A stretch of DNA of 64,000 nucleotides. It comes from Methanoculleus sp. (GTDB lineage Archaea; Halobacteriota; Methanomicrobia; Methanomicrobiales; Methanoculleaceae). Below are positions 48,149 to 61,542 of this stretch, one piece after another; position 1 is the stretch's first letter, and each line of letters starts with the position of its first letter. The notes beneath the pieces were generated by a model that saw only the letters and a program-made list of their open reading frames with translations, was not told the origin of the DNA and searched no databases. The position numbers and the translations under genes were made by a program. The stretch covers positions 62,001-126,000 of the forward strand of contig NZ_JASEFJ010000001.1 of the NCBI RefSeq assembly GCF_030019085.1. Reading direction: 5' to 3'.

Positions 48149-49603
48149 TCAGTTCAGTCTCAGTAACCGCGCATTGATCGCCACGATGATGGTGCTGAGG
48201 CTCATCAAAACCGCCCCGACCGCAGGTGTCAGCACGATACCGTAAGAGACTGCCACCCCTGCCGCGAGCGGGATTGCAAACGTGTTGTAGCCTGTGGCCC
48301 AGAGCAGGTTCTGTAACATCTTGGTGTATGTCTTCCTGGAGAGAAGGACGATATCGACCACGTCCCGTGGGTTGCTCCGGACGAGAACGTTATCTGCGCT
48401 CTCCACGGCGACGTCCGTCCCGGCACCGATCGCGATCTCCACGTCCGCCTGAACAAGCGCAGGAGCGTCGTTTATACCGTCGCCGACCATCGCCACACGG
48501 TACTGCTGCTGGATCTCCTCGATCTTCTTTGACTTTTCGTGGGAAAGGACCTCCGCGAAATAATCATCAAGCCCGAATTCGCCGGCTACCCATCCAGCCA
48601 CATAGCGGTTGTCCCCTGTGAGCATCATGCATCGGAGCCCCATCTCCTTCAGTCGGGCGATTGCGTCACGGGACTCGTCCCGGATAATATCCGCAAGAGC
48701 CAGTGCCCCGAGAAGTTTCTGGTCTTCCAGGAGAAAGACCCCTGTCTTTCCCTGTGATTCCGCCGTCGCCACCCGTTCATCGCCCACCGGTATGCCCGCC
48801 TCGCTGAGATACCCGGGGCTTACCACCAGGCTCGGTGTGCCGGCTATCCTTGCTTCCACACCTTTTCCTGGAATGGCCCTGAAATCTTCCAGCGGCAGGA
48901 GTTCAATCCCTCTCTCCTCCGCGCTCTGCACTATTCCCCGTGCAATCGGGTGCTCGGAGTTCGCCTCAACAGAAGCGGCACGCCGGATGATCTCCTCCTC
49001 ACTCACCGTGCCCCGGGCGAATACGTCGGTCACGCCGAATACCCCATTGTGAGCGTCCCGGTCTTATCAAAGACGATCGCCTGCAGGTCGCGTGCCCTCT
49101 CAAACGCCTTTCGTTCACGAGTTCTTCCAGCGCCCGCGAAGCGCCCATACCCGAGCGCATCTCCACCCAGTGGCCGAGAAGCATGATATCGATATGGGTG
49201 GCCAGTTCCCAGAAGAACAGTGCACCGCTGGCCACACCCAGCACCACAATGGCGCTGAAGATGTAGGCGACGGTGATCGCAACAGCGATCAAGGTCATCA
49301 TCCCGGACAACCGTGCCCGAATCTCCTGCACGATTCCTTTCAGGAATGGATACCCGCCGTAGGCGTAAACCGCCGTGGAAAGGGTGAGGAGAATGAGGGC
49401 CGACCCCGGAAAAGAGTATTCAACGCCGAAGAATGCCTGGAAACCCGGGGACAGGATCAGGATTGGCACCGTTAGTATCAGGGAGACGATGAACCGTTGC
49501 CGGAAGTCCGTCATCGCATGGGCGTGATCACCCCCAGGTGCTCTGCATGCGCTCCGTCTGCGCCTGTCCAGTGGTCAGTGTGGCTCTCCTGCTTCCGCTC
49601 CAT
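48149..49603 (-). pseudogene. Copper-type (CopB-like) P-type ATPase, broken by an internal deletion and frameshifts
   Basis: Minus strand. A His-rich N-terminus starting at 49603 (HTDHWTGADGAHAEHLG) runs out of frame near 49515. The next frame gives membrane helices and LLGHWVEMRSGMGASRALEELV. At about 49115 the sequence jumps into ERKAFERARDLQAIVFDKTGTLTMG in another frame, so roughly 200 residues with the actuator TGES loop and the CPH membrane motif are missing. Immediately after, GGGG lacks one G and the frame shifts again into GVTDVFARGTVSEEE, then the intact nucleotide-binding domain (MLTGDNRYVAGWVA, GDGINDAPALVQADV). The product cannot be a working pump. Confidence 0.85.
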
Positions 49604-50204: not shown

Positions 50205-50551
50205 GGTCTGGTGCGTGACACGGGTCAGGGGAACGTTATCCTGTTTGAAACCACAAATCCTGGCGGACTTTTACCCGCTAAGGCGACCCCTATCCTCATA
50301 TGTATCGCTGCCCTAAACCTTATAATTGTTCCCGGGCATTTGTTATGCCCGAGCGGGTCCGCTCCTCACCTCAGTCGAGCGATCAGGGTATTTGCCCTGG
50401 AAACTTACCATTATACAGTATAAGCCCCCATTCGGTCCGGTCATGCAAAAAGTACTCCGGAAGTGTGTTTCTGGCAAATCACGCTTGAAATGTTAACAAC
50501 AAAACCTTTATTGAATTGACTGACTGTATTTTTCCTGTAGTTGAAGGAACA
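50205..50551. promoter_or_regulatory. Intergenic region with promoters of tRNA-Leu and the Eha-Fwd operon
   Basis: No gene seen; the ORF at 50115-50423 runs through the tRNA antisense and is rejected. AAAACCTTTATTGAATTG (about 50500-50517) contains a TATA candidate some 40-50 bases before ehaB, whose ATG is preceded by GAAGGA. On the minus strand CAATTATAAGG (near 50318-50328) may serve the tRNA. Confidence 0.4.
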
Positions 50552-51037
50552 ATGCTGGGCGAACTCCTCTACATCCTGGCGGCGGCGATCATCACCTGGC
50601 TTCTCTTTGTGAGCGTCGATATCTTCTTCCGGTTGCCGGAAAAGGGGGGCGTCAGTGGAGCGTCAGCTGTTGCGCGGGATATCCAGGCCGCCGGTGGCGA
50701 TATTGCCGGGGGCAACATGATGGGAAACATCGTCTGCTCACCTGACGCCTCGGCAGGAACGCTCCTTGCCGCCTGCGGTGTCTACGTCGCCGGTATCCCC
50801 GGTGGACTTATCGCGGCTGCGCTCGTCTTCATCGGTAACCGCATCTGCCATGACCCCGGCTACGCAGGGACCACCGGCGCGTTACTGGCGACGTTCGTCG
50901 TATACGGGTTCACTCAGGTAGGGTTCACCGCAACGAACTTCATTGCAGGCACGGTGATCGCCATCCTCTCCATCCAGGGCATCTCCCACGTCCACGCGAG
51001 CAGGCTACTTGCACGGCTCTGGAGGGTCAGGCAGTGA
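50552..51037 (+). CDS. ehaB: Energy-converting hydrogenase A subunit B (EhaB)
   Basis: 161 residues from the ATG at 50552 with Shine-Dalgarno GAAGGA. Integral membrane protein: an N-terminal helix MLGELLYILAAAIITWLLF, a polar loop, and three or so further helices. Length and position at the head of the cluster match EhaB of Methanothermobacter. It forms part of the membrane arm that couples ion flow to ferredoxin reduction. No EhaA was found before it. Confidence 0.75.
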   Translation: MLGELLYILAAAIITWLLFVSVDIFFRLPEKGGVSGASAVARDIQAAGGDIAGGNMMGNIVCSPDASAGTLLAACGVYVAGIPGGLIAAALVFIGNRICHDPGYAGTTGALLATFVVYGFTQVGFTATNFIAGTVIAILSIQGISHVHASRLLARLWRVRQ

Positions 51038-51273
51038 TCGCGCTCCCCCTGGTTGCTGTGGTTGCGGTAGTTGCCGCGCTCCGGGCTACATTCGAGAGGA
51101 ATACCGCCAGGAAACTCCCTTACGTGAACGTCCTGAACTTCGCCATCGCCGCCTCTATCGTCCTGCTGCTCGACCACCCGCTTTCACTGGTGGCGGCCGC
51201 CGCCTACTTTGTCGGGTCGACGCTTGAGGCCAATGCGATCGCGAGCACCTATGCAGGAGCGAGGAACCAATGA
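51034..51273 (+). CDS. ehaC: Energy-converting hydrogenase A subunit C (EhaC)
   Basis: 79-residue membrane protein with two to three helices (IALPLVAVVAVVAAL and NFAIAASIVLLLDHPL). It overlaps ehaB and ehaD by 4 bases. The assignment rests on order, size and topology within the Eha cluster. Confidence 0.7.
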   Translation: MIALPLVAVVAVVAALRATFERNTARKLPYVNVLNFAIAASIVLLLDHPLSLVAAAAYFVGSTLEANAIASTYAGARNQ

Positions 51274-51500
51274 TCCCGGCGCTCGAGATAATGTTCGGGT
51301 TTATCGCGCTCGTGGGCGGGGTCTCTGCCGCCCTCATCCTGGACTACTATGGCAAACTGATCTCGCTCGGGATCCTTGTAGCCGGAGTCATACCGTTCAT
51401 CGTGGACCGCGGTTATCTGGACGTCGCCATCACGGTCTCTCTGATAGCCCCGATAGCCACAATATTTGTTCTCAGGGTCGTGAGGAGGGCTGATGCGTGA
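51270..51500 (+). CDS. ehaD: Energy-converting hydrogenase A subunit D (EhaD)
   Basis: 76-residue membrane protein with helices around EIMFGFIALVGGVSAALIL and ILVAGVIPFIVDRGYLDVAI. The latter recalls MnhB/NuoK-like segments of related antiporter-type modules. Overlaps both neighbours; assigned by order. Confidence 0.7.
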   Translation: MIPALEIMFGFIALVGGVSAALILDYYGKLISLGILVAGVIPFIVDRGYLDVAITVSLIAPIATIFVLRVVRRADA

Positions 51501-51739
51501 TGGAGGCTACCTTCATCCTCGGGCTCGCGATCCTTCTGATCGGTGTTCTTGCGGTTGCTTTCGTGCGGCCGAAGACCTACGTTGCCCGGTTGATCAACCT
51601 CGAGATACCGGGCTGGGGCCTCCTGCTCGTTATGCTTGCATATGACGAAACCCTCGCCCTCCTGACGTTCATCGCGGTAACCGCCATCAGCACGTTTGTT
51701 ATCGTGCGGCTGATGGAGTGGAGGGATGAATCCTGCTGA
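51500..51739 (+). CDS. ehaE: Energy-converting hydrogenase A subunit E (EhaE)
   Basis: 79 residues from the ATG at 51500 (a GTG directly before it is an alternative). Helices ATFILGLAILLIGVLAVAFV and a second one; FVRPKTYVARLINLEIPGWG resembles the loop of small antiporter subunits. Overlaps ehaD. Assigned by order and topology. Confidence 0.7.
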   Translation: MEATFILGLAILLIGVLAVAFVRPKTYVARLINLEIPGWGLLLVMLAYDETLALLTFIAVTAISTFVIVRLMEWRDESC

Positions 51740-52188
51740 TCATCTCCAGGATATCTCGATTCCTCTCTGATTTCCGGAATCTGGTAGCGATATTTGCCGG
51801 TGCATGCATCATCGTCGCCGTTGCCGGCATAATCTCCCTGCCGCTCGAGTTCGAGGAGAACCAGCTCTACCCAAAGACCCTCAACTCGGAATCCCCGCTC
51901 TACCCTTACGACCGGGGCGGGGTGCCCTTCGGCCCAACGGAAGTCGTCGCACAGTACCCGGAGAATTCTCCTTACTTGGGATATGTCACCACCTACCTGA
52001 CACCCTTCTCACGTTACCTCGCAGACCATACGCACTACCTGGGCACGACGATCGTCGCCCACCCGGGTGGGATCATCGATGAGATCCTCTACAACACCCG
52101 TGGACTCGATACGGTCGTCGAGACAAGCATCCTCTTTGTAGCGTTTGCGATCGCCTCACACCTCTACCGGAGGACAAAAGAAGAATGA
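51733..52188 (+). CDS. ehaF: Energy-converting hydrogenase A subunit F (EhaF), non-canonical start
   Basis: The coding frame is open from just after a TGA at 51727 to 52188, but it has no ATG, GTG or TTG until the GTG at 51922 given in the ORF track, which would cut off the N-terminal transmembrane helix (VAIFAGACIIVAVAGIISL). The best start is a CTG at 51733 or 51736, 6-9 bases after the ribosome-binding site GGAGGG. The product (about 151 residues) has an N-terminal helix, an extracytoplasmic loop (LPLEFEENQLYPK, then YPYDRGGVPFG) and a C-terminal helix, matching EhaF in size and order. Confidence 0.7.
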   Translation: MLIISRISRFLSDFRNLVAIFAGACIIVAVAGIISLPLEFEENQLYPKTLNSESPLYPYDRGGVPFGPTEVVAQYPENSPYLGYVTTYLTPFSRYLADHTHYLGTTIVAHPGGIIDEILYNTRGLDTVVETSILFVAFAIASHLYRRTKEE

Positions 52189-52784
52189 TCCTGACATACT
52201 CGATAGGTCTCTTCGTGGCGTTCGCGGTGACAGGGATAGCCTTTTTTGCCCTGATGCGCGAGACCGATGGTCTCCACCGTCTCCTCCTCACCGATCTTGT
52301 CGAGGTAGTCACCCTCGCGTTCATTGCGCTGGTCGGCACCGACCTCGCCGAGGCGCTCATCCTCCCGGGGCTTGTGGTGGGCACCTCGGAGTTGATCGCG
52401 CTCTCCGAGATCTACCGGGTCAAAGAAGGTTTCAACCGACCACCGTCCGATGGTCTGCAGATCGAGGTGATGGAGACCGCTCCTCCCATACTTGCCGCAC
52501 TCCTGGTCGGCTACGGTATCATCCTCTCCGGGTTCTCGGGTGGGGCTGTTGCCGGGCTCGGCGTGATCTTCTACTTCCTCAGCCGCGACCACCACGAGCG
52601 GTTTGAGGTGATCGAGACCGCGAGCGGCTACTCGTGGGTCATCTGGATCTTCGCGTTCTTCACCTTCATGATCTTCCCGGAGCGGTGGTTCTTTGCGGTC
52701 ATGCTCGCGGGGTCGGCGATCCTTGTCAAGGTTATGGCCAAGATGTCGATCATCGGCACCATGCGGGGTGGTCCAAATGTCTGA
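52185..52784 (+). CDS. ehaG: Energy-converting hydrogenase A subunit G (EhaG)
   Basis: 199-residue membrane protein with about five helices. Characteristic segments are YSIGLFVAFAVTGIAFF and DLVEVVTLAFIALVGTDLAEAL. Overlaps ehaF by 4 bases and ehaH by 8. It belongs to the membrane arm. Assigned by order and size. Confidence 0.75.
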   Translation: MILTYSIGLFVAFAVTGIAFFALMRETDGLHRLLLTDLVEVVTLAFIALVGTDLAEALILPGLVVGTSELIALSEIYRVKEGFNRPPSDGLQIEVMETAPPILAALLVGYGIILSGFSGGAVAGLGVIFYFLSRDHHERFEVIETASGYSWVIWIFAFFTFMIFPERWFFAVMLAGSAILVKVMAKMSIIGTMRGGPNV

Positions 52785-53430
52785 TATCGGCGGGGTCGAC
52801 CTCTTTGTGCTGGAGTTCGGGGATATCCTCCACTACTTCACTCCTTACTCCCTCACGCTATTCATCTTCGCGCTGATCTTCACAGTGCTTGTCATAGTTG
52901 CGAGGCCTGAGAGGCAGCTCGATATCGTGTTTGGGGGAGACGCCTACTACGCGAAGAAGACGCCCATCTCGGAGAGGCAGTTCCGGCGTTTCATGGCGAT
53001 AGCCTGCGGTCTTGCGTCCATGGGGGCGATGGCGAGCGGTGACATCTTCAACTACACGCTCTTCGTCTCAATGGTCGGTATCACCAACGTCGGCATCGTT
53101 GCGGCGGTGAAAAGCCGCCACGTTCTCAACGCCGCATACGAGTATGGGATCGTCGCCATGGTCGGCACCCTGCCGCTTTTCGGGGGTGCCGCGCTGATCC
53201 TCGGGACCACCGGTACGCTCTCCATCCCGGCCCTTGCGACCGGGGGCTATGCGGTCCCGCTGGTGGCGAAGATCCTCCTCGCTCTCGGCGTTACCGGGGA
53301 GGGGATGGCGCCGTTCTACGCGGCAAAAGCCGAGATGTTCAGGGCGCCGGGCGCCCCCTACGTCATCATGTGCTCCCTCTCATCGCTGTTGATCTTCCTG
53401 CGCGTCGTGGAGATTGTCATAACCATCTGA
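52777..53430 (+). CDS. ehaH: Energy-converting hydrogenase A subunit H (EhaH)
   Basis: 217 residues from the ATG at 52777; the ORF track begins 28 codons earlier inside ehaG. Five to six helices. The conserved-looking segments ASMGAMASGDIFNYTLFVSMVGITN and LLALGVTGEGMAPFYAAKAEMF resemble a short proton-channel subunit of the NuoL/M/N type. It is a candidate for the ion-translocating subunit. Confidence 0.78.
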   Translation: MSDIGGVDLFVLEFGDILHYFTPYSLTLFIFALIFTVLVIVARPERQLDIVFGGDAYYAKKTPISERQFRRFMAIACGLASMGAMASGDIFNYTLFVSMVGITNVGIVAAVKSRHVLNAAYEYGIVAMVGTLPLFGGAALILGTTGTLSIPALATGGYAVPLVAKILLALGVTGEGMAPFYAAKAEMFRAPGAPYVIMCSLSSLLIFLRVVEIVITI

Positions 53431-53435
53431 TAACC

Positions 53436-53639
53436 ATGAAGAAAAAGACGTTTCCCTACGGATTTGCGGTATCGGCCATCGCCATCATCGTCGCATGGGC
53501 GGCGCTGGCAGCAGCCCTTATACCGCTCTGGGCGGCAGTTACAATATTCGTCATCGCCTTTCCGTTACTGGTGCTCTTCCTGACACTCTGGTGGCGGGCT
53601 CCTGGGGGAGAAGAGGATATACCGTTTATAGGATACTGA
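53436..53639 (+). CDS. ehaI: Energy-converting hydrogenase A subunit I (EhaI)
   Basis: 67 residues from the ATG at 53436. Two helices (AVSAIAIIVAWAALAAALIPL and VTIFVIAFPLLVLFLTLWW) and a short acidic tail. Assigned by position between ehaH and ehaJ. Confidence 0.68.
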   Translation: MKKKTFPYGFAVSAIAIIVAWAALAAALIPLWAAVTIFVIAFPLLVLFLTLWWRAPGGEEDIPFIGY

Positions 53640-53640
53640 T

Positions 53641-54486
53641 ATGATCGAGTACCTGGTATTTGCAGCAGTCTTCGGGCTTCTTCTGCTGGGGCTTCACCGG
53701 AAAGTCATCGCACGTATACAGACAAGGCCGGGACCCCCCATCTGGCAGGAGATCCTCCACGCGCTGAAGTTCTCGTTCAAGAGTACCTGGGTGCCGAGAA
53801 CTGCAAGCGCTACACTCTATGTAGGGATAGTTCTCATCGGCATTGGGATCTGGAGCGCAGCGTTTTTTGTCGTCTTTGCCGGTGAGAGCATCCTGATCCT
53901 CTTTGCGATCTACATGCTCCACAAGGTGGTGGAGCATGGGTTTGGGCTCTCATCAGGGTCGCCCTACGGAAAGTTCGGTGGTGTTCGGTCAGTCATATCG
54001 GCGGCCTCCGAGATCCCGCTCTTCGTCACGATCGCCGCGATCTACCTCCTCACGGGATCGCTCATCCTGCGCGACATCACCGCCTACCAGGGAGTCCACG
54101 GCCCGCTCCTCTTTATCGCGCCTCCCTTTGCCATTGCTATGTTCCTCGTGATCCTCTCAAAGATGCCCTACGGCCCCTTCTCGATCGTGGAGAGCAAAGA
54201 ACTCGTGAGTGGCTACAAGACGGAGCACTTTGGGGTCTGGCGGGCTGGTCTGGCCGTGACCGAGGGGCTCAAGACGTTCGTGCTCCTCTACGCCTTTGTG
54301 GCGATCTTCATCGGGGCTGTTCCGTTCTGGGCGGCTCTTGTCATCATGACCGTGGTGCTCATATCTCTCTCGTTTGTCTGTGCGATAACCCCGATGCTAT
54401 CGCCGTATGACAGTGTCACCATCCAGGGCCTTATCACCGGGCTGATGCTGGTCTACACAGGATATCTCTGGTGGGTGATCCCATGA
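53641..54486 (+). CDS. ehaJ: Energy-converting hydrogenase A subunit J (EhaJ, NuoH-like)
   Basis: 281 residues with about eight helices. It is homologous to complex I NuoH/subunit 1, seen in RIQTRPGPPIWQEILHALKF and the acid-rich loop ESKELVSGYKTEHFGVWR that borders the quinone or ion path. It links the hydrogenase module to the membrane arm. Confidence 0.88.
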   Translation: MIEYLVFAAVFGLLLLGLHRKVIARIQTRPGPPIWQEILHALKFSFKSTWVPRTASATLYVGIVLIGIGIWSAAFFVVFAGESILILFAIYMLHKVVEHGFGLSSGSPYGKFGGVRSVISAASEIPLFVTIAAIYLLTGSLILRDITAYQGVHGPLLFIAPPFAIAMFLVILSKMPYGPFSIVESKELVSGYKTEHFGVWRAGLAVTEGLKTFVLLYAFVAIFIGAVPFWAALVIMTVVLISLSFVCAITPMLSPYDSVTIQGLITGLMLVYTGYLWWVIP

Positions 54487-54725
54487 TTCGTGAACTGGTG
54501 CTCCTTGGAGGGGTGTTCTACATTGTTATAGCGCTGGTGCAGTGGGTACAGAATCAGACAGTTCAGGTCGAGGCGGCGCTGGTTGCCGGGATCCTGGTAG
54601 TGCTCCCGCTCATCCATTACGCCCGGGACGAGGAGCGACTCAAGAAGATCGAGATGGCCGGACTCTGGCTGGCGATCGCCCTCTTTGTTGGTTACGCCCT
54701 TGCAAAGGCTGGGGGATACCTATGA
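54483..54725 (+). CDS. Energy-converting hydrogenase A small membrane subunit (EhaK or EhaL)
   Basis: 80 residues from the ATG at 54483, overlapping ehaJ by 4 bases. Three helices (LVLLGGVFYIVIALVQWV, VEAALVAGILVVLPLI, MAGLWLAIALFVGYALA). The order fits EhaK, or EhaL if EhaK was lost; only one small gene lies between ehaJ and ehaM. Confidence 0.65.
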   Translation: MIRELVLLGGVFYIVIALVQWVQNQTVQVEAALVAGILVVLPLIHYARDEERLKKIEMAGLWLAIALFVGYALAKAGGYL

Positions 54726-55111
54726 CCGGGCGCTGCCTCTACGAGAAAGACCTCCGGCCGCTGAAGTACAACATCCTGACCAGCACAAAACACGATGCGA
54801 CCGTCAGGGCGATTGCGAACCGACTCGGCGTGAGCGACGCAAAACTGCGTAGACTTCTAATTCAGCGACTCGATATGTCGCTGCTGGAGAACATCGAGAC
54901 CAGGTGGGAGATGGGGCTTCGGTATGCCGATGATGGCGATCCGCTGGCAAAGGAACTCGGGTGTGAACTCTTCAGCCGGTTCATACCTCTTCTGGATCAG
55001 GAGAGAATGAAAGAGATTTACGAAGAGACCAGAGCGCTGGCTCAGGAGATACCTTTTGAAGGGGCAATCGTGAGAGGGAAGGCACTGATCAGAGAGGCGA
55101 TCCTCTCATGA
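54722..55111 (+). CDS. ehaM: Energy-converting hydrogenase A subunit M (EhaM, DUF1959)
   Basis: 129 residues from the ATG at 54722. A soluble helical protein (LKYNILTSTKHDATVRAIANRLG, ETRALAQEIPFEGAIVRGK) matching DUF1959. It is the only Eha protein here without membrane helices or metal motifs; its role is unknown, probably assembly or regulation. It overlaps ehaN by 4 bases. Confidence 0.8.
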   Translation: MTGRCLYEKDLRPLKYNILTSTKHDATVRAIANRLGVSDAKLRRLLIQRLDMSLLENIETRWEMGLRYADDGDPLAKELGCELFSRFIPLLDQERMKEIYEETRALAQEIPFEGAIVRGKALIREAILS

Positions 55112-55563
55112 GCATACTCCAGAGCATCAAGAACGCCGTTCGGTCGAGATCGATCCATGTCAGTTACATCGACGTTGGGTCGTGCAACGGCTGCGATATC
55201 GAGGTGCTGGCCTGCCTTGCTCCGCGCTACGATATCGAGCAGTACGGGATCTACGTTCACAACAACCCCCGTGAGGCTGACGTCCTCCTGGTGATAGGGT
55301 CGGTCACCCCGCAGTGGGAGGACAAACTCCGTAACATCTGGGAGAAGATCCCCGCCCCAAAGGCGGCCATAGCCATCGGGAACTGCCCGATATCGGGGTG
55401 TGTATATGCACGTAAGGGTTCTTTGACAACCCCTCCAGTCAAGAACTATATACCCATAGCCGCAGAGGTTCCGGGCTGCCCGCCAAGACCGACGGAGATA
55501 CTCTCCGCCATACTCTCGGTTGCACCACTGATATTCAAAGATTACGAGGAAAAACAGTCATGA
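55108..55563 (+). CDS. ehaN: Energy-converting hydrogenase A small subunit (EhaN, NuoB-like)
   Basis: 151 residues. The proximal [4Fe-4S] cluster ligands are visible: GSCNGCDIEVLAC, GNCPISGCVY and VPGCPPRP, with the GSVTPQ segment typical of NuoB/hydrogenase small subunits of group 4. It passes electrons from the NiFe site to the ferredoxin-like subunits. Start overlaps ehaM; end overlaps ehaO. Confidence 0.93.
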   Translation: MSILQSIKNAVRSRSIHVSYIDVGSCNGCDIEVLACLAPRYDIEQYGIYVHNNPREADVLLVIGSVTPQWEDKLRNIWEKIPAPKAAIAIGNCPISGCVYARKGSLTTPPVKNYIPIAAEVPGCPPRPTEILSAILSVAPLIFKDYEEKQS

Positions 55564-56648
55564 AGAAGACCGTCGACGTCTCCATTCCGCTCGGGCCGAT
55601 GCACCCCTGCTGGAAAGAACCCGTTCGCCTCAAATGTGAGACGGCAGGCGAGCGGGTGCTCCATACTGAGGTCGAGCTCGGCTACATGAAGAAGGGGATC
55701 GAGCGGATCATGCGCGGCCGTCCCTGGCAGGAGGTTATGTTCCTTGCCGAACGGGTCTGCGGGATCTGCTCGGTCGTTCACAACATGGTCTTCATCGAGG
55801 CGATGGAACTGATAAGCGATATAGCGGTTCCGCCGCGAGCGGCCTACCTCCGGGTGGTTGCAAACGAACTTGATCGGGTTGCAAGTCACATCCTGGCAAA
55901 CTTCTCCTACTGCTACACTATCGAGCACGAGACGCTTGCTATGTACCTCTTAAACACCCGGGAGAGGGTGCTTGACAACCTGGAACGGCTCACAGGGTCA
56001 CGGATCAACACCGCCTACATGATACCTGGCGGCGTCCGGTTCGACCTCCTGCCGGAGGACGCTGCGACGATGCTTGCCGATCTCGCGAAGGTCGAGGAGG
56101 AGTTGAAACGCTACGTCCAGATCTTTGAGAGCGGCCCCCTGATCGGGCTACGGAGCCGGGGGATCGGCTACATGAGCCGCGAGGATGCAATCCGTGCTCA
56201 CACAGTAGGCCCGACTGCACGGGCAAGCGGCGTCGAGGACTGCGACCTGCGCCTCCGTCACCCGACCTACCGGGCGCTGGGGTTCGAGCAGGTTACCCGA
56301 ACCGAAGGCGACAACTTCGCCAGGGTAATGCTCCGGTTCCAGGAGGTCTTCCAGAGCATCGACCTGATCCGAAAATGCGTGGACACCCTCCCTGCAGGCC
56401 ACATCCGGGGCGGCGGACTATGCAGGGCAGGAGAGGTCTCCTACAGCGGCGAGGCGCCCCGGGGCGAGCTGACCTACACCATAAAGACCGACGATTTCGG
56501 CAGGGTGCTCGATATCGCGATACGAACGCCATCGATCATGAATATCGAGGCCTGCGCCCACTACATGGTCGTGAACGCCACCTCCATCGCCGACGTGACC
56601 TCGACGTTTATCAGCAGTGACCCCTGTATCGCCTGCAACGAAAGGTGA
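55560..56648 (+). CDS. ehaO: Energy-converting hydrogenase A large subunit (EhaO, NiFe)
   Basis: 362 residues. Both NiFe ligand motifs are intact: ERVCGICSVVHN near residue 60 and DPCIACNER at the very C-terminus. The protein ends right after the second motif, so there is no C-terminal peptide to remove during maturation. It is the H2-activating subunit, NuoD-like. The retained cysteines mean an active hydrogenase and not a complex I relic. Confidence 0.95.
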   Translation: MKKTVDVSIPLGPMHPCWKEPVRLKCETAGERVLHTEVELGYMKKGIERIMRGRPWQEVMFLAERVCGICSVVHNMVFIEAMELISDIAVPPRAAYLRVVANELDRVASHILANFSYCYTIEHETLAMYLLNTRERVLDNLERLTGSRINTAYMIPGGVRFDLLPEDAATMLADLAKVEEELKRYVQIFESGPLIGLRSRGIGYMSREDAIRAHTVGPTARASGVEDCDLRLRHPTYRALGFEQVTRTEGDNFARVMLRFQEVFQSIDLIRKCVDTLPAGHIRGGGLCRAGEVSYSGEAPRGELTYTIKTDDFGRVLDIAIRTPSIMNIEACAHYMVVNATSIADVTSTFISSDPCIACNER

Positions 56649-56652
56649 AGTG

Positions 56653-57264
56653 ATGCGATCGATCGTCTACTACGTGCGGGAGTTCCTCAGGCCCGAATGG
56701 CTCAAAAAGTTCTTCTTCGTAAAGACCGCGCCGCTCGTGACCCCACCGTACTTCAAGGGCTACCCTACCCTGACGGGGAAGGATTGTACGGGGTGTTTCA
56801 CCTGCATGATGATCTGTCCGGCACCCGACGCGATCGCCGTCCTCCGCAGAAAGGAACAGTGGGAGCCAGAGGTCTACCCTGGCCATTGCATTCGATGCGG
56901 TCTCTGTGTTGAGGCGTGCCCGGAAGGTGTTCTCGCAAGCGGTCGGGTCACGGATCTCGCCAGGCGCGATGCCACGGCGTTCTGGCATTCGTTTCACCTG
57001 GAGGTCGACGAGAGTCTCTGTATGCGCTGCGGGAACTGCTGCGTCTCCTGCCCGATCAACCGGCAGATCGATCCTCAACTCGCCGGGACAGGGACATCCA
57101 CAAGCGACGAGGTTATCATGCGGGTCAGCAGCGGGCGTGTGCGGATCCTCCACGAGGAGAAGTGCACGGGTTGTAAGACCTGCGAGACTCAGTGCCCGAG
57201 CGGCGCGATCCGGGTCGCCCGTATGGTGGAAGGGGTTCAGTTTCTGGACGGGGTGGAGTCATGA
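56653..57264 (+). CDS. Polyferredoxin subunit with four [4Fe-4S] motifs (EhaP/Q-like)
   Basis: 203 residues from the ATG at 56653. An amphipathic N-terminus (REFLRPEWLKKFFFV) resembles NuoI/EchF. The four cluster motifs are CTGCFTCMMICP, CIRCGLCVEACP, CMRCGNCCVSCP and CTGCKTCETQCP. It sits exactly between the hydrogenase and formylmethanofuran dehydrogenase genes, so it could carry electrons from EhaNO to Fwd. It may replace both EhaP/EhaQ and the FwdF/FwdG proteins, none of which is otherwise present here. Confidence 0.8.
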   Translation: MRSIVYYVREFLRPEWLKKFFFVKTAPLVTPPYFKGYPTLTGKDCTGCFTCMMICPAPDAIAVLRRKEQWEPEVYPGHCIRCGLCVEACPEGVLASGRVTDLARRDATAFWHSFHLEVDESLCMRCGNCCVSCPINRQIDPQLAGTGTSTSDEVIMRVSSGRVRILHEEKCTGCKTCETQCPSGAIRVARMVEGVQFLDGVES

Positions 57265-57650
57265 AGTTCCTGATGAACACCGGACGGACGGTCAACCAGG
57301 GCGTAACCGTTGAGAACAAGGGCTCTGTCGAGTACGCGAGGGAGGCCTCGACCTGTTTCATGCACGAGTTCGATATGCTCGAGCTCGGGGTCGATGACGG
57401 CGATCCAGTACTCGTGCGTGGCCCGGTTGGCGAGGTTGTGATGCGTGTGAAGGCGTCTGTTGAGGTTGAGATCGGGACTGTCTTTGTCCCCTACGGGCCT
57501 TACGCGAACCATATCGTGGCTGCAGATACCCATTCCACGGGAATGCCGGACTTCAAGTCGCACGAGGTGGAGATCGAGCCTACCGACGAAGAGCCGAAAC
57601 TGGTTTACGAACTGATGGAAGACCTTGGAGGGCTGGCCTATGAACGTTAA
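57261..57650 (+). CDS. fwdD: Formylmethanofuran dehydrogenase subunit D
   Basis: 129 residues from the ATG at 57261, overlapping the polyferredoxin by 4 bases. It is the molydopterin-dinucleotide-binding beta-barrel domain: MNTGRTVNQGVTVENKG at the start, LELGVDDGDPVLVRGPVGEV, and FVPYGPYANHIVAADTHSTGMP. It completes the active site formed by FwdB. First gene of fwdDBAC. Confidence 0.92.
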   Translation: MKFLMNTGRTVNQGVTVENKGSVEYAREASTCFMHEFDMLELGVDDGDPVLVRGPVGEVVMRVKASVEVEIGTVFVPYGPYANHIVAADTHSTGMPDFKSHEVEIEPTDEEPKLVYELMEDLGGLAYER

Positions 57651-58929
57651 AGACGCGGTCTGCCCGTTCTGTGGCTGTCTCTGCGACGATATCGAGGTTG
57701 AGATTGAGGGTGACCGGCTGGTCGGCGTCACAAACGCCTGTGAACTTGGGGCGACGAAGTTCCTGGGCGGCGAGAGGCTCAAGTCACCCATCCGGCGTGA
57801 AGGAAAGGCCTGGAAGGAGATCTCCTACGACGAGGCCATCCGTTACGCTGCTGACATGCTTCTTGACGCCGAACGCCCACTCCTCTACGGCTGGAGCGGC
57901 ACACACGGCGAGGCACAGTGCGTCGGCGTTCATATGGCTGAACTCGTGCGCGGTGTGATCGACAACACCTCGTCGGTCTGTCACGGTCCATCTGTCCTGG
58001 CCATCCAGGAGGTGGGGCATCCAGGGTGCACGCTCGGGGTCGTGAAGAACCGGGCGGACCTCTTGATCTACTGGGGGTCAAACCCGATCGACGCCCACCC
58101 ACGGCACCTCTCGCGCTACACCTGCTACGCTGAGGGATTCTTCCTTGAAAACGCCTTCCGCGACCGGAAGGTGGTGGTTGTAGATGTCAGGAAGACCCAG
58201 ACCGCAAACATCGCCGACGAGTTCGTCAGGGTCAGGCCCGGCGGGGATTACGCAATCCTCTCGGCGCTACGGACGATCGTCAGGGGTAAGACCGATACCA
58301 TCCCGCGGATGGTCGCCGGCGTCACACGAGATCAGCTGATCCGGGTGGCAGACCTCTGTCTGAACGCGAAGTTCGGGGCGGTCTACTTCGGTCTCGGTCT
58401 CACCATGATCCCGGGGAAGTACAAGAACATACGTAACGCCATCGAACTCGTCACGGAACTGAACCGGCACACGAAGTTTACCATATCGGCGATGCGTGGT
58501 CACTACAATGTCTACGGTTCAAACGAGGTCAACACCTGGATGACAGGCTATCCATTCGCGATCGACTTCTCCCGGGGTATCGCCTTCTACAACCCGGGGG
58601 AGACAACGGCAGTGGACGTCCTGGCCCGCAAAGAGTGTGATGCCGCACTGATCGTTGGGAGCGACCCGGCCGCTCACTTCCCGCGGAGGTGTATCGAGCA
58701 CCTGGCCGAGATTCCGGTCGTCCAGCTCGACCCCTACCCTAATGCCACCACCGCGTTCTGCAAAGTCCAGATCCCGGTGGCGGTGACGGGGGTCGACGCC
58801 GAGGGAACAGCCTACCGGATGGACGGCGTACCGATCCGGACCAGAAAGGTTCTATCGAGCGATTACCTCTCCGATGAGGAGGTCCTATCCCGGATGTATG
58901 CGTTGATGCAGGAGGCACTGAAGCGATGA
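57640..58929 (+). CDS. fwdB: Formylmethanofuran dehydrogenase subunit B (catalytic, W/Mo)
   Basis: 429 residues from the ATG at 57640. The N-terminal cluster motif CPFCGCLCDDIEVE binds a [4Fe-4S] centre. The metal ligand is a cysteine in SSVCHGPSVLAIQEVG, not selenocysteine. The bis-pterin fold continues with VGSDPAAHFPRRCIEHL. It reduces CO2 to formate, which passes through a tunnel to FwdA. Cys-type enzymes are usually the tungsten isoform in methanogens with two sets, but the metal cannot be decided from sequence. Confidence 0.95.
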   Translation: MNVKDAVCPFCGCLCDDIEVEIEGDRLVGVTNACELGATKFLGGERLKSPIRREGKAWKEISYDEAIRYAADMLLDAERPLLYGWSGTHGEAQCVGVHMAELVRGVIDNTSSVCHGPSVLAIQEVGHPGCTLGVVKNRADLLIYWGSNPIDAHPRHLSRYTCYAEGFFLENAFRDRKVVVVDVRKTQTANIADEFVRVRPGGDYAILSALRTIVRGKTDTIPRMVAGVTRDQLIRVADLCLNAKFGAVYFGLGLTMIPGKYKNIRNAIELVTELNRHTKFTISAMRGHYNVYGSNEVNTWMTGYPFAIDFSRGIAFYNPGETTAVDVLARKECDAALIVGSDPAAHFPRRCIEHLAEIPVVQLDPYPNATTAFCKVQIPVAVTGVDAEGTAYRMDGVPIRTRKVLSSDYLSDEEVLSRMYALMQEALKR

Positions 58930-60626
58930 CCGAACTCCTGGTGAAGAACGCCCATGTGATCGACCCTCTCAGCGGGATCAACGGCGAGACGATGGATATC
59001 GCCATCCGCGACGGAAAGATAGTTGAGGAGGTGAGCGCTGCGGCGGAGGTGATCGATGCCCGCGGAATGCTCACGATGCCAGGTGGGATCGACTCGCACA
59101 CCCATATCTGCGGGACGAAGGTGAACTTCGGGCGCTACATGAGCCCGGAGGATATGCGGGCGGGGAGGACGCCCCGACGTGGGCCGATGCACGCCACCTC
59201 AGGCTACAGCGTCCCGACCACCTATGGTAACAGTTACCGCTACAGCGTGATGGGCTACACCACCCTGCTTGAGGGGGCGATGGCGCCGCTTGAGGCCCGG
59301 CACACCCACGAGGAGTTCACCTACACCCCCCTCCAGGACACGATGGCAAACACCCTCTTTGACGGGAACTGGTCGATCATGGAGGCGATCCGGGATGGAG
59401 ACGTGAAGAGGGTTGCCGCAATAATCGCCTGGACGCTCTCGGCGGTGAAGGGGTTCGGAGTAAAGCTCACAAACCCCGGCGGTACCGAGGCCTGGCAGTG
59501 GGGGAAGAACGTATCCTGTATCCGCGACCCGGTGCCGTACTTTGGGGTGACACCGGCAGAGATCATCCGATCGGTCATCGAGGCAAACGAACTCCTTCAC
59601 CTCCCGCACTCTGTTCACCTCCATTGTAACAACCTTGGCACTCCAGGGAACTACACCTGCACACTGGGGTCGCTTGGCCTTGCCCCGGACCTGAACCCGA
59701 GACGCCAGACACTTTACGCCACCCACGTTCAGTTCCACGCCTACGGTGGGTCTGGGTGGAAGGACTTCTCTTCGAAGAGTGAGCCTATAGCAAACCTCGT
59801 CAACATGCGTCCTCAGGTGGTCATAGATATGGGCCAGATCCTCTTTGGCCGGACCACAACGATGACCGCGGATGGCCCAATGGAGTTCAACCTCTACCGC
59901 CTCCATCACGAGAAGTGGAGCAACCACGACGTGGAGTTAGAGACTGGTTCAGGGATCATCCCGGTCATCTACCGGCGTAAGAACCTGGTTAACTCGGTCA
60001 TGTGGGCGATCGGACTTGAACTTGCGCTACTCACGAAGAGTCCCTGGCAGTGCCTGCTCACGACGGATAACCCGAACGGTGCGCCGTTTGTTCGATACCC
60101 CGAGATCATAGGTCTCCTGATGAGCAGGAGGTACCGTGATGCTGAGTTTGCCACAATTCATCCCGATACCGGTTCGCGGGTGCCCCTGCCGGCGATCGAT
60201 CGTGAGATGGACTGGTATGAGATCGCGGTGATGACCCGCGCAGGGCAGGCGCGGGCGCTCGGGATCCAGGATCTCGGGAAAGGCCATCTTGCTCCTGGTG
60301 CGGATGCGGACGTCGCGATCTACCCTATCCGGATCGATGAGGTCGACCCCTCGGCCGATTACCAGAAGGTGATCGATGGTTTTTCCCGGACAGAGTACAC
60401 GATCAAGCGGGGCAGGGTCGTCGCCCGCCGGGGCGAGTGTGTGGTTCACGGGAGCAATTCCACCCTCTGGGTCAGGCCGAAGGTATCTGAGAACTATGAT
60501 ATGGGAAAGGACCCGGAGTTTGTCGAGAAGTTCGATCGGTACTATACCGTCAGGATGAGTAACTATCCGGTTCAGGAACAGTATCTGAACAGGAGTCGAT
60601 GCATCGAGACGGAAACAGAACTATGA
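58926..60626 (+). CDS. fwdA: Formylmethanofuran dehydrogenase subunit A (amidohydrolase)
   Basis: 566 residues. An amidohydrolase fold with a binuclear zinc site: GGIDSHTHICG for the first ligands, FGVKLTNPGG for the likely carboxylated lysine, then HSVHLHCNNLGT. It condenses formate with methanofuran. Overlaps fwdB and fwdC by 4 bases each. Confidence 0.96.
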   Translation: MTELLVKNAHVIDPLSGINGETMDIAIRDGKIVEEVSAAAEVIDARGMLTMPGGIDSHTHICGTKVNFGRYMSPEDMRAGRTPRRGPMHATSGYSVPTTYGNSYRYSVMGYTTLLEGAMAPLEARHTHEEFTYTPLQDTMANTLFDGNWSIMEAIRDGDVKRVAAIIAWTLSAVKGFGVKLTNPGGTEAWQWGKNVSCIRDPVPYFGVTPAEIIRSVIEANELLHLPHSVHLHCNNLGTPGNYTCTLGSLGLAPDLNPRRQTLYATHVQFHAYGGSGWKDFSSKSEPIANLVNMRPQVVIDMGQILFGRTTTMTADGPMEFNLYRLHHEKWSNHDVELETGSGIIPVIYRRKNLVNSVMWAIGLELALLTKSPWQCLLTTDNPNGAPFVRYPEIIGLLMSRRYRDAEFATIHPDTGSRVPLPAIDREMDWYEIAVMTRAGQARALGIQDLGKGHLAPGADADVAIYPIRIDEVDPSADYQKVIDGFSRTEYTIKRGRVVARRGECVVHGSNSTLWVRPKVSENYDMGKDPEFVEKFDRYYTVRMSNYPVQEQYLNRSRCIETETEL

Positions 60627-61393
60627 TGAGAGTCAACCTTACGCTTAAACCGATGGGGAGCTGGTCAATCCCGATCGAGGCGGAGTCGATCATCCCTGCG
60701 AACTTTCTTTCAGGCACCGATCTCACGGTCTGGCGGGGGAACCGCGAGCTCGGTCTTGAGGAGGCTTTCTCGGTCTCGGTGGTGGGGGGTGCTGATCGGG
60801 CGGAGGATGTGGAGATCGTTCTCGCGGGGAAGACCGCCCGGTTGAAGAGGGTCGGCGAGTACATGGACGCAGGGAAGATCACCGTCCTCGGGGATATCGG
60901 GATGCACTGCGGCAACTTCATGACCGGCGGGACGATCGAGATCCAGGGTAACGCCGATGGCTGGCTCGGTCGGGAGATGGGGGGTGGATCAATCATCTGC
61001 CGGGGTAACGCCGCTGATTACTGCGCTTCGGGCTACCGCGGCGGCCGGAAGGGCATGACCGGGGGTCGCGTGGAGGTCTATGGTCGTGTCGGCGATTTCC
61101 TGGCAGAGAACCTTGCTGGTGGGACGGTCATTGTGCACGGCGATGCAGGAGATATGCCCGGCGCCGAGATGCGTGGCGGGACGCTCATCATCCACGGGGA
61201 CTGCACGCGGCCGGCGGCTAACATGAAGGATGGCGCCTGCTACGTCTACGGGACGGCGCGGTGGATGCTCCCGACATTCAGGAACCTCGGCACGGTCAGG
61301 CACGAAGGGCGGACGCTAATCCAGTTTACTGGCGATGTGGCGAACCGCGGGAAAGGAAATCTTTTTGTCGGGAACTACGAATATCTGGACTGA
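60623..61393 (+). CDS. fwdC: Formylmethanofuran dehydrogenase subunit C
   Basis: 256 residues from the ATG at 60623 (ATGA overlap with fwdA). A right-handed beta-helix made of repeated G-x-x-G-x-x-M-x-G-G units: GNFMTGGTIEIQGNADGWLG, GGRKGMTGGRVEVYG and GDMPGAEMRGGTLIIHGD. It resembles the glutamate synthase alpha C-terminal domain and gives structural support in the Fwd complex. Confidence 0.94.
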   Translation: MMRVNLTLKPMGSWSIPIEAESIIPANFLSGTDLTVWRGNRELGLEEAFSVSVVGGADRAEDVEIVLAGKTARLKRVGEYMDAGKITVLGDIGMHCGNFMTGGTIEIQGNADGWLGREMGGGSIICRGNAADYCASGYRGGRKGMTGGRVEVYGRVGDFLAENLAGGTVIVHGDAGDMPGAEMRGGTLIIHGDCTRPAANMKDGACYVYGTARWMLPTFRNLGTVRHEGRTLIQFTGDVANRGKGNLFVGNYEYLD

Positions 61394-61542
61394 TGGTCAG
61401 GCACGAGTGTGGGTTTGATGCTCCGATCCACTGCAAGCGCTGCGGGAGACCGCTGGTCAGTAACGAGCGCCTTGGGCTATACTGCCCGCACTGTGGAAGA
61501 AGAGTGAGCATGATCTGTCCTGGTTGCGGTCGCCTCTGGTGA
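61393..61542 (+). CDS. 49-residue double zinc-ribbon protein ending the Fwd operon
   Basis: The ATG at 61393 overlaps the fwdC stop (TGATG). The protein is nearly all zinc ribbon: CGFDAPIHCKRCGRPLV, then YCPHCGRRVSMICPGCGRLW, with up to eight cysteines in CxxC pairs. No named family known to me. Translational coupling to fwdC suggests a role with the formylmethanofuran dehydrogenase, for example in assembly. The ORF track shows it only with an over-long start inside fwdC. Confidence 0.7.
   Translation: MVRHECGFDAPIHCKRCGRPLVSNERLGLYCPHCGRRVSMICPGCGRLW

Follow-up and report, generated by a model that had tools for sequence, protein, structure and literature searches.

How electrons pass from the energy-converting hydrogenase Eha to formylmethanofuran dehydrogenase (Fwd) is the question raised by positions 50552-61542 of a 64,000-nucleotide stretch of Methanoculleus sp. 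DNA (contig NZ_JASEFJ010000001.1, positions 62,001 to 126,000; the whole stretch is hereafter called the window). A base-by-base check of the junctions resolved this region into 19 open reading frames (ORFs), all on the + strand, from the ATG of ehaB at 50552 to the stop of a zinc-ribbon gene at 61542. On balance, these genes probably make up one functional module, in which Eha and an FwdABCD core of its own would be joined by a direct electron path (EhaO-EhaN-polyferredoxin-FwdB) and would serve to refill the methanogenic cycle. Evidence for this comes from the polyferredoxin, a hydrogenase subunit whose second half resembles the Fwd subunit FwdG, and in the joint presence and absence of the two enzymes across the Methanomicrobiales. 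The features of the region, with the basis of each assignment, are as follows.

50492..50545, +: conserved promoter-like element before ehaB, gttaacaacaaaacctttattgaattga..., putative archaeal B recognition element (BRE)/TATA (160-bp upstream alignment of the window and 14 other loci)
50552..51037, +: ehaB (position and conservation in relatives; no Pfam match)
51034..51273, +: ehaC, DUF2109 (family match)
51270..51500, +: ehaD, DUF2108 (family match)
51497..51739, +: ehaE, DUF2107 (family match)
51736..52188, +: ehaF, DUF2106 (family match; 5' end without a standard start codon in this assembly)
52185..52784, +: ehaG, DUF2105 (family match)
52777..53430, +: ehaH, PF10125, antiporter-like (family match; NADHdeh_related is among the families of the run)
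53436..53639, +: ehaI-like small membrane protein (position; no Pfam match)
53641..54486, +: ehaJ, NuoH-like, NADHdh (family match)
54483..54725, +: ehaK/L-like small membrane protein (position; kept in relatives)
54722..55111, +: DUF1959 protein, which we take to be possibly a diverged EhaM (24.2 bits against a cut-off of 24.3, i.e. just below)
55108..55563, +: ehaN, NuoB-like small hydrogenase subunit (family match; four cluster Cys intact)
55560..56648, +: ehaO, NuoD-like large [NiFe] subunit (family match and hydrogenase motifs)
56653..57264, +: Eha polyferredoxin, 4Fe-4S family, NuoI/MbhN-like over residues 1-100 by sequence and FwdG-like over 106-190 by sequence, profile, genome-wide rank and predicted fold
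57261..57650, +: fwdD (family match)
57640..58929, +: fwdB (family match; metal-ligand Cys114 intact)
58926..60626, +: fwdA (family match; seven checked His, Lys and Asp positions conserved)
60623..61393, +: fwdC (family match)
61393..61542, +: zinc-ribbon protein, 49 aa (family match; directly 3' of the polyferredoxin in genomes without linked fwd)

The junctions are mostly 4-base overlaps and no gap exceeds 5 bp, the widest spacers being those of ehaH/ehaI (5 bp) and ehaO/polyferredoxin (4 bp). An earlier note on this DNA, made from the letters and their translations, had described the same head-to-tail arrangement and the same 5-bp maximum, with about 18 genes where the count is 19. Near the start of ehaF (51705-51770) relatives carry an ATG a few bases past the ribosome-binding site (MTPNRSIITRIS) and the corresponding ATG of the window is out of frame, which is due either to a small assembly indel or to a genuine frameshift.

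By its subunits and motifs the Eha of this region is a group 4 energy-converting [NiFe] hydrogenase, predicted to couple ion flow to ferredoxin reduction. The two CxxC Ni-ligand motifs of EhaO (C67, C70, C356, C359) are invariant in 114 sequences, EhaN has its four cluster cysteines, and membrane subunits of NuoH-like and antiporter-like type are present, as are the Eha-specific DUF2105-2109 proteins. On the Fwd side, FwdB, FwdA and FwdC score above the curated cut-offs of TIGR03129, TIGR03121 and TIGR03122, and FwdD reaches 113.7 bits, under the exception-model cut-off of 175. The metal-ligand Cys of FwdB is present in 97 of 98 rows, that of the window included, and all seven positions checked at the FwdA metal site are conserved. 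No separate fwdF or fwdG was found within the 19-gene cluster. The catalytic core thus described qualifies as a formylmethanofuran dehydrogenase, with an electron module that differs from the FwdF and FwdG of the complete tungsten (W-Fwd) complex.

The polyferredoxin has the four cluster motifs that the earlier note had counted, comprising 16 motif cysteines, to which a variable C130 is added. Fifteen of the 16 are invariant or nearly so, the exception being C48, which differs in 35 of 112 sequences. This residue, the second Cys of the first cluster motif, gives way to Ala, Glu, His, Ser or Thr, often as CTHxLxC, and in such sequences the first cluster is possibly a three-Cys or His-ligated one. 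Residues 1-100 match FpoI (59.7 bits) and NuoI (57.4 bits), both below the curated cut-offs, and MbhN too, and the predicted model places helices at residues 2-11 and 14-22 of the N-terminus. For the C-terminal half, the top single-domain PDB matches are FwdG chains (9sfi_U, 60.6 bits; 5t5i_G, 54.0), a profile search gave 80.5, 66.2 and 53.3 bits to FwdG-type chains against at most 38.3 to NuoI chains, and the best other match in its own genome is the FwdG of a cluster linked to hdr genes. The likeness includes the spacer between the motifs. When the AlphaFold model of the polyferredoxin (mean predicted local distance difference test, pLDDT, 90.6) was compared with VIA-align, the top three rows were all FwdG-type chains, with FwdG of Methanothermobacter wolfei (5t5i_G) ranking first (Z 13.5, root-mean-square deviation (rmsd) 1.9, 79 aligned residues). 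This comparison covered mostly residues 111-193, so that the assignment of the N-terminal half rests on sequence. A FwdF-like origin of the C-terminal half was rejected, as single FwdF domains reached about 35 bits or less by phmmer; in the profile search the sum over its repeats gave FwdF the higher totals, and full-length FwdF rows from Foldseek, with rmsd near 23, were not used. By sequence and predicted fold, the polyferredoxin is composed of a NuoI/MbhN-like first half and a FwdG-like second half. This two-part make-up is new as far as could be found: the literature searched was silent on a FwdG domain in Eha, which is not proof of its absence elsewhere.

In order to follow these proteins across the order, FwdB, EhaO, the polyferredoxin and FwdA were searched in 119 Methanomicrobiales genomes and the results joined. 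EhaO and the polyferredoxin were found in the identical 100 genomes, and in 99 of these the polyferredoxin gene lies directly 3' of ehaO, the remaining case being a truncated ehaO match. The same order occurs outside the Methanomicrobiales (genomes G141, G234 and G330). Since it follows ehaO also where fwd is not alongside, both in a family with unlinked genes and outside the order, the polyferredoxin is the last Eha subunit and not a gene of the junction, and the role of junction linker that the earlier note had given it is ruled out. Genomes G111 (L217:6770-7468) and G108 (L220:11643-12278) each hold another NuoI-FwdG polyferredoxin, about 50% identical, which lies near moeA-like genes and has no eha with it.

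Eha-type FwdA, separated from other FwdA by a gap in score (at least 880 bits, with one fragment at 625, against at most 592), occurs in 99 of the 100 genomes with Eha and in none of the 19 without it. Fisher tests of this co-presence, in which phylogeny is ignored, gave 4e-21 for all genomes and 3e-6 when each genus was counted once per state. The Eha-less genomes are spread over seven genera, three of which (g5, g13, g28) include both states, so that the presence of Eha must have changed several times, its parts moving together. The one exception, G068, has Eha and no Eha-type fwdA. Its Eha-linked FwdB (L082:5876-6961) carries Tyr in place of the metal-ligand Cys, as could be expected of a decaying or repurposed Eha-linked Fwd. 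In the FwdA tree, linked and unlinked Eha-type sequences form one clade (support 100/100), the unlinked rows forming one nested subclade, and the nearest named relative of the window's FwdA is from Methanoculleus. That this tree broadly follows families would suit a simple inheritance of the eha-fwd adjacency, devoid of special functional meaning. Such an explanation is nevertheless very improbable, given the co-presence within genera polymorphic for Eha, the retention of gene overlaps in different families, the polyferredoxin with its FwdG-like half and the occurrence of unlinked Eha-type copies only together with Eha.

The comparison of gene order that the earlier note had proposed showed ehaO and Eha-type fwdA together on one strand in 87 of the 119 genomes. 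With this frequency and an overlap of polyferredoxin and fwdD genes of 4 bases in the median (80 loci), the order is conserved and not due to chance. The two genes are far apart on one contig in 5 genomes and on different contigs in 7, three of which (G081, G089, G102) look like contig breaks; the nine genomes with truly unlinked Eha-type FwdA, contig breaks excluded, all retain Eha. Linkage is hence the rule but dispensable, having been lost in one family (f2). There, Eha-type fwdDBAC is mostly convergent to an Hdr-MvhD-fwd cluster, and the polyferredoxin and zinc-ribbon genes are still found behind ehaO, by which the zinc ribbon was ruled out as a fwd gene. At L059, L064, L068 and L087, all of one family, the relocated convergent fwdDBAC stands beside two moeA-like genes. 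In Methanocorpusculum (g17) the polyferredoxin is still followed by fwdA and fwdC only, fwdB being part of a long ORF at another site. In the loci examined, Eha-type fwd genes had no fwdF or fwdG as neighbors, whether linked to eha or not. Some runs have gained genes: L079:8001-10007 (G043) and L145 hold about 1.9 kb with a long ORF between polyferredoxin and fwdD, and L084:12683-13397 (G111) holds two small genes between fwdA and fwdC, the second PIN-domain-like by eye, resembling a toxin-antitoxin pair.

The genome studied here encodes further fwd sets, which bear on the physiological role of the module. One cluster (contig C6) comprises fwdG, fwdF, hdrCBA, mvhD and fwdDBAC, followed by an mcrB-like gene (the names Hdr, Mvh and Mcr being assigned by eye and position), and its FwdB scores higher against the FwdB-type chain of the Methanospirillum hungatei Fdh-Hdr-Fmd complex (7bkb) than the Eha-type FwdB does (600.7 and 397.8 bits, respectively). 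A further fwdDBAC with a moeA-like gene downstream was seen at L042 (contig C9), and a fwdB/fwdD pair without fwdA and fwdC, its FwdB 60% identical to the Eha type, at L044 (C10). Eha has been assigned an anaplerotic role, the supply of Fwd with low-potential electrons (Lie 2012, cited in PMC6019823 and PMC9635834). Since feeding Fwd is in this sense precisely the refilling role of Eha, the earlier note set up a false contrast in regarding Eha as dedicated to the CO2-fixing step rather than to refilling, a contrast further weakened by the separate Hdr-linked Fwd; the association with the CO2-fixing step itself agrees with the joint occurrence and joint loss of Eha and Eha-type Fwd. A stronger form of that view, and of a proposal of 2009, would make Eha-type Fwd the main CO2-fixing enzyme and Eha its main electron source, tying methanogenesis to ion gradients instead of bifurcation. 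The near-universal Eha-type FwdA of Eha genomes could be cited in its favor, as could three genomes (G094, G054, G092) in which the sole FwdA match is of Eha type and FwdG is missing. These three were dropped as a natural experiment because they also lack a full-length HdrA match, so that the assemblies have probably missed the entire Hdr-fwd cluster. As, moreover, 19 genomes have neither Eha nor Eha-type Fwd, and the genome studied here has an Hdr-linked cluster with fwdF and fwdG whose FwdB is nearest to that of Methanospirillum Fdh-Hdr-Fmd, a main role is improbable. The same cluster leads us to read Eha-Fwd as an ion-driven side input that most likely refills the methanogenic cycle, in parallel with the Hdr-linked Fwd.

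With regard to expression, the 19 genes are likely to form one transcription unit, as predicted from the sequence and as the earlier note had supposed. The element preceding ehaB is kept in Methanoculleus and near relatives and is a putative BRE/TATA. Of internal initiation, which would separate the eha and fwd parts, the sequence gave no sign: no synonymous-site footprint was found before the polyferredoxin gene or fwdD (top window 0.85, permutation median 0.87), and an internal promoter there is considered unlikely; a scan of the region for bacterial promoters and terminators, set aside as well, gave consensus-site counts equal to those of shuffles. A published transcriptome, taken up below, is weak evidence against strict co-regulation of the two parts.

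It can be tentatively proposed, as a reading somewhat short of probable, that Eha and Eha-type Fwd form a membrane-bound supercomplex of formate-hydrogenlyase type, in which an ion gradient would drive H2-dependent CO2 reduction to formylmethanofuran through the NuoI-FwdG fusion and no diffusible ferredoxin would take part. In the probable module outlined at the start, influx of Na+ or H+ would allow Eha to lift electrons from H2 to low potential; these would leave by way of EhaO/EhaN and reach the polyferredoxin at its first two clusters. The N-terminal half of this subunit would dock on the hydrogenase in the manner of NuoI or MbhN, and the FwdG-like half, docked on FwdB, would receive the electrons next. 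CO2 would be reduced to formate at FwdB, and FwdA and FwdC would condense the formate with methanofuran. Solved Fwd structures show subunit G carrying the F polyferredoxin, the module that donates electrons (PMC11656701). Such features would be expected of a direct bridge: one end NuoI-like, the other FwdG-like, and a gene placed between those for a hydrogenase and for an Fwd that has neither a fwdF nor a fwdG. Sequence, model and analogy suggest direct electron transfer from Eha to Fwd, and the FwdG-like domain favors the complex that the earlier note had considered possible.

The published alternative (PMC2686161, PMC5563889) is coupling without contact: soluble ferredoxin, reduced by Eha by way of its polyferredoxin, would form the pool on which Eha-type Fwd draws, gene clustering reflecting co-regulation only and the FwdG-like half being no more than a ferredoxin-docking two-cluster domain. 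Possible as it is, and in keeping with a family that lost the linkage and kept all the parts, this explanation is the less likely one in view of the C-terminal half, which matches FwdG, spacer and fold included, above other two-cluster proteins, FwdG being the very subunit that carries the docked F polyferredoxin. Several observations nonetheless count against a direct bridge within one module. The C9 and C10 fwd sets are likewise devoid of neighboring fwdF and fwdG, as soluble coupling would allow, and for this reason Eha-type Fwd could share the FwdG and FwdF of the Hdr cluster. Two genomes of another family have a four-cluster polyferredoxin with the FwdG-like half, no linked fwd and a separate FwdG-like match, and the polyferredoxin of G141 consists of the N-terminal half only. 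Runs are interrupted between polyferredoxin and fwdD (L079, L145) and between fwdA and fwdC (L084). Finally, in a Methanoculleus transcriptome under shaking, ehaB and ehaD were down and the Eha-adjacent fwd was not differentially expressed (PMC12008871).

Relatives of the proposed module are known. The Methanothermobacter Eha (ehaA-T) has homologous subunits in the same order; unlike here, its transcription unit includes polyferredoxins of 6 and 10 clusters, and fwd lies elsewhere. In Escherichia coli formate hydrogenlyase, a group 4 [NiFe] hydrogenase is joined via ferredoxin-like subunits to a molybdopterin CO2/formate enzyme. By analogy, the module described here would resemble that system (7z0s, 7z0t) operating in reverse, and HycF matches the polyferredoxin; it differs in the many small membrane subunits of Eha, in the methanofuran-dependent amidohydrolase and in one fused bridge in place of HycF and HycB. 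The Fdh-Hdr-Fmd complex of M. hungatei likewise has a partner enzyme feeding Fwd/Fmd via an F/G iron-sulfur module, the partner there being a bifurcating Hdr. The tungsten Fwd of M. wolfei (5t5i) shares the FwdABCD core and the FwdG domain, but its FwdG is a separate 82-residue chain carrying FwdF, whereas here a hydrogenase subunit incorporates the FwdG-like half by fusion, and no FwdF is encoded alongside.

The neighborhood itself has been reported before. Eha genes beside fmd were described in three Methanomicrobiales, with the proposal that Eha reduces ferredoxin for Fmd (PMC2686161, 2009); two Fwd sets that receive electrons from Eha and from Hdr, respectively, through separate ferredoxins were proposed for Methanocorpusculum parvum (PMC5563889, 2017); and Methanoculleus MAG17 has fwd at four loci, beside Ech, Eha, a bifurcating system and formate dehydrogenase (PMC11201294, 2024). 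The cluster is the same, and the gene order and the basic idea of Eha feeding Fwd, published in 2009 and 2017, are therefore not new; the FwdG-like half, the order-wide co-absence and the unlinked family are not mentioned in the available parts of these reports. Upstream of the run, on the - strand, a P-type metal ATPase (by eye) at 48149-49514 is seemingly divided over overlapping frames (48149-49033 and 48999-49514), owing to a frameshift or an assembly error.

The electron route from Eha to Fwd, and a private ferredoxin pool for the refill branch, have been under discussion since 2009-2017 with no structural answer. A hydrogenase subunit ending in a FwdG-like domain offers a concrete and testable one, namely direct transfer. 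If true, Fwd would have one more source of electrons in addition to Hdr bifurcation and the F420-linked module, and the joint disappearance of Eha-type Fwd and Eha would be accounted for.

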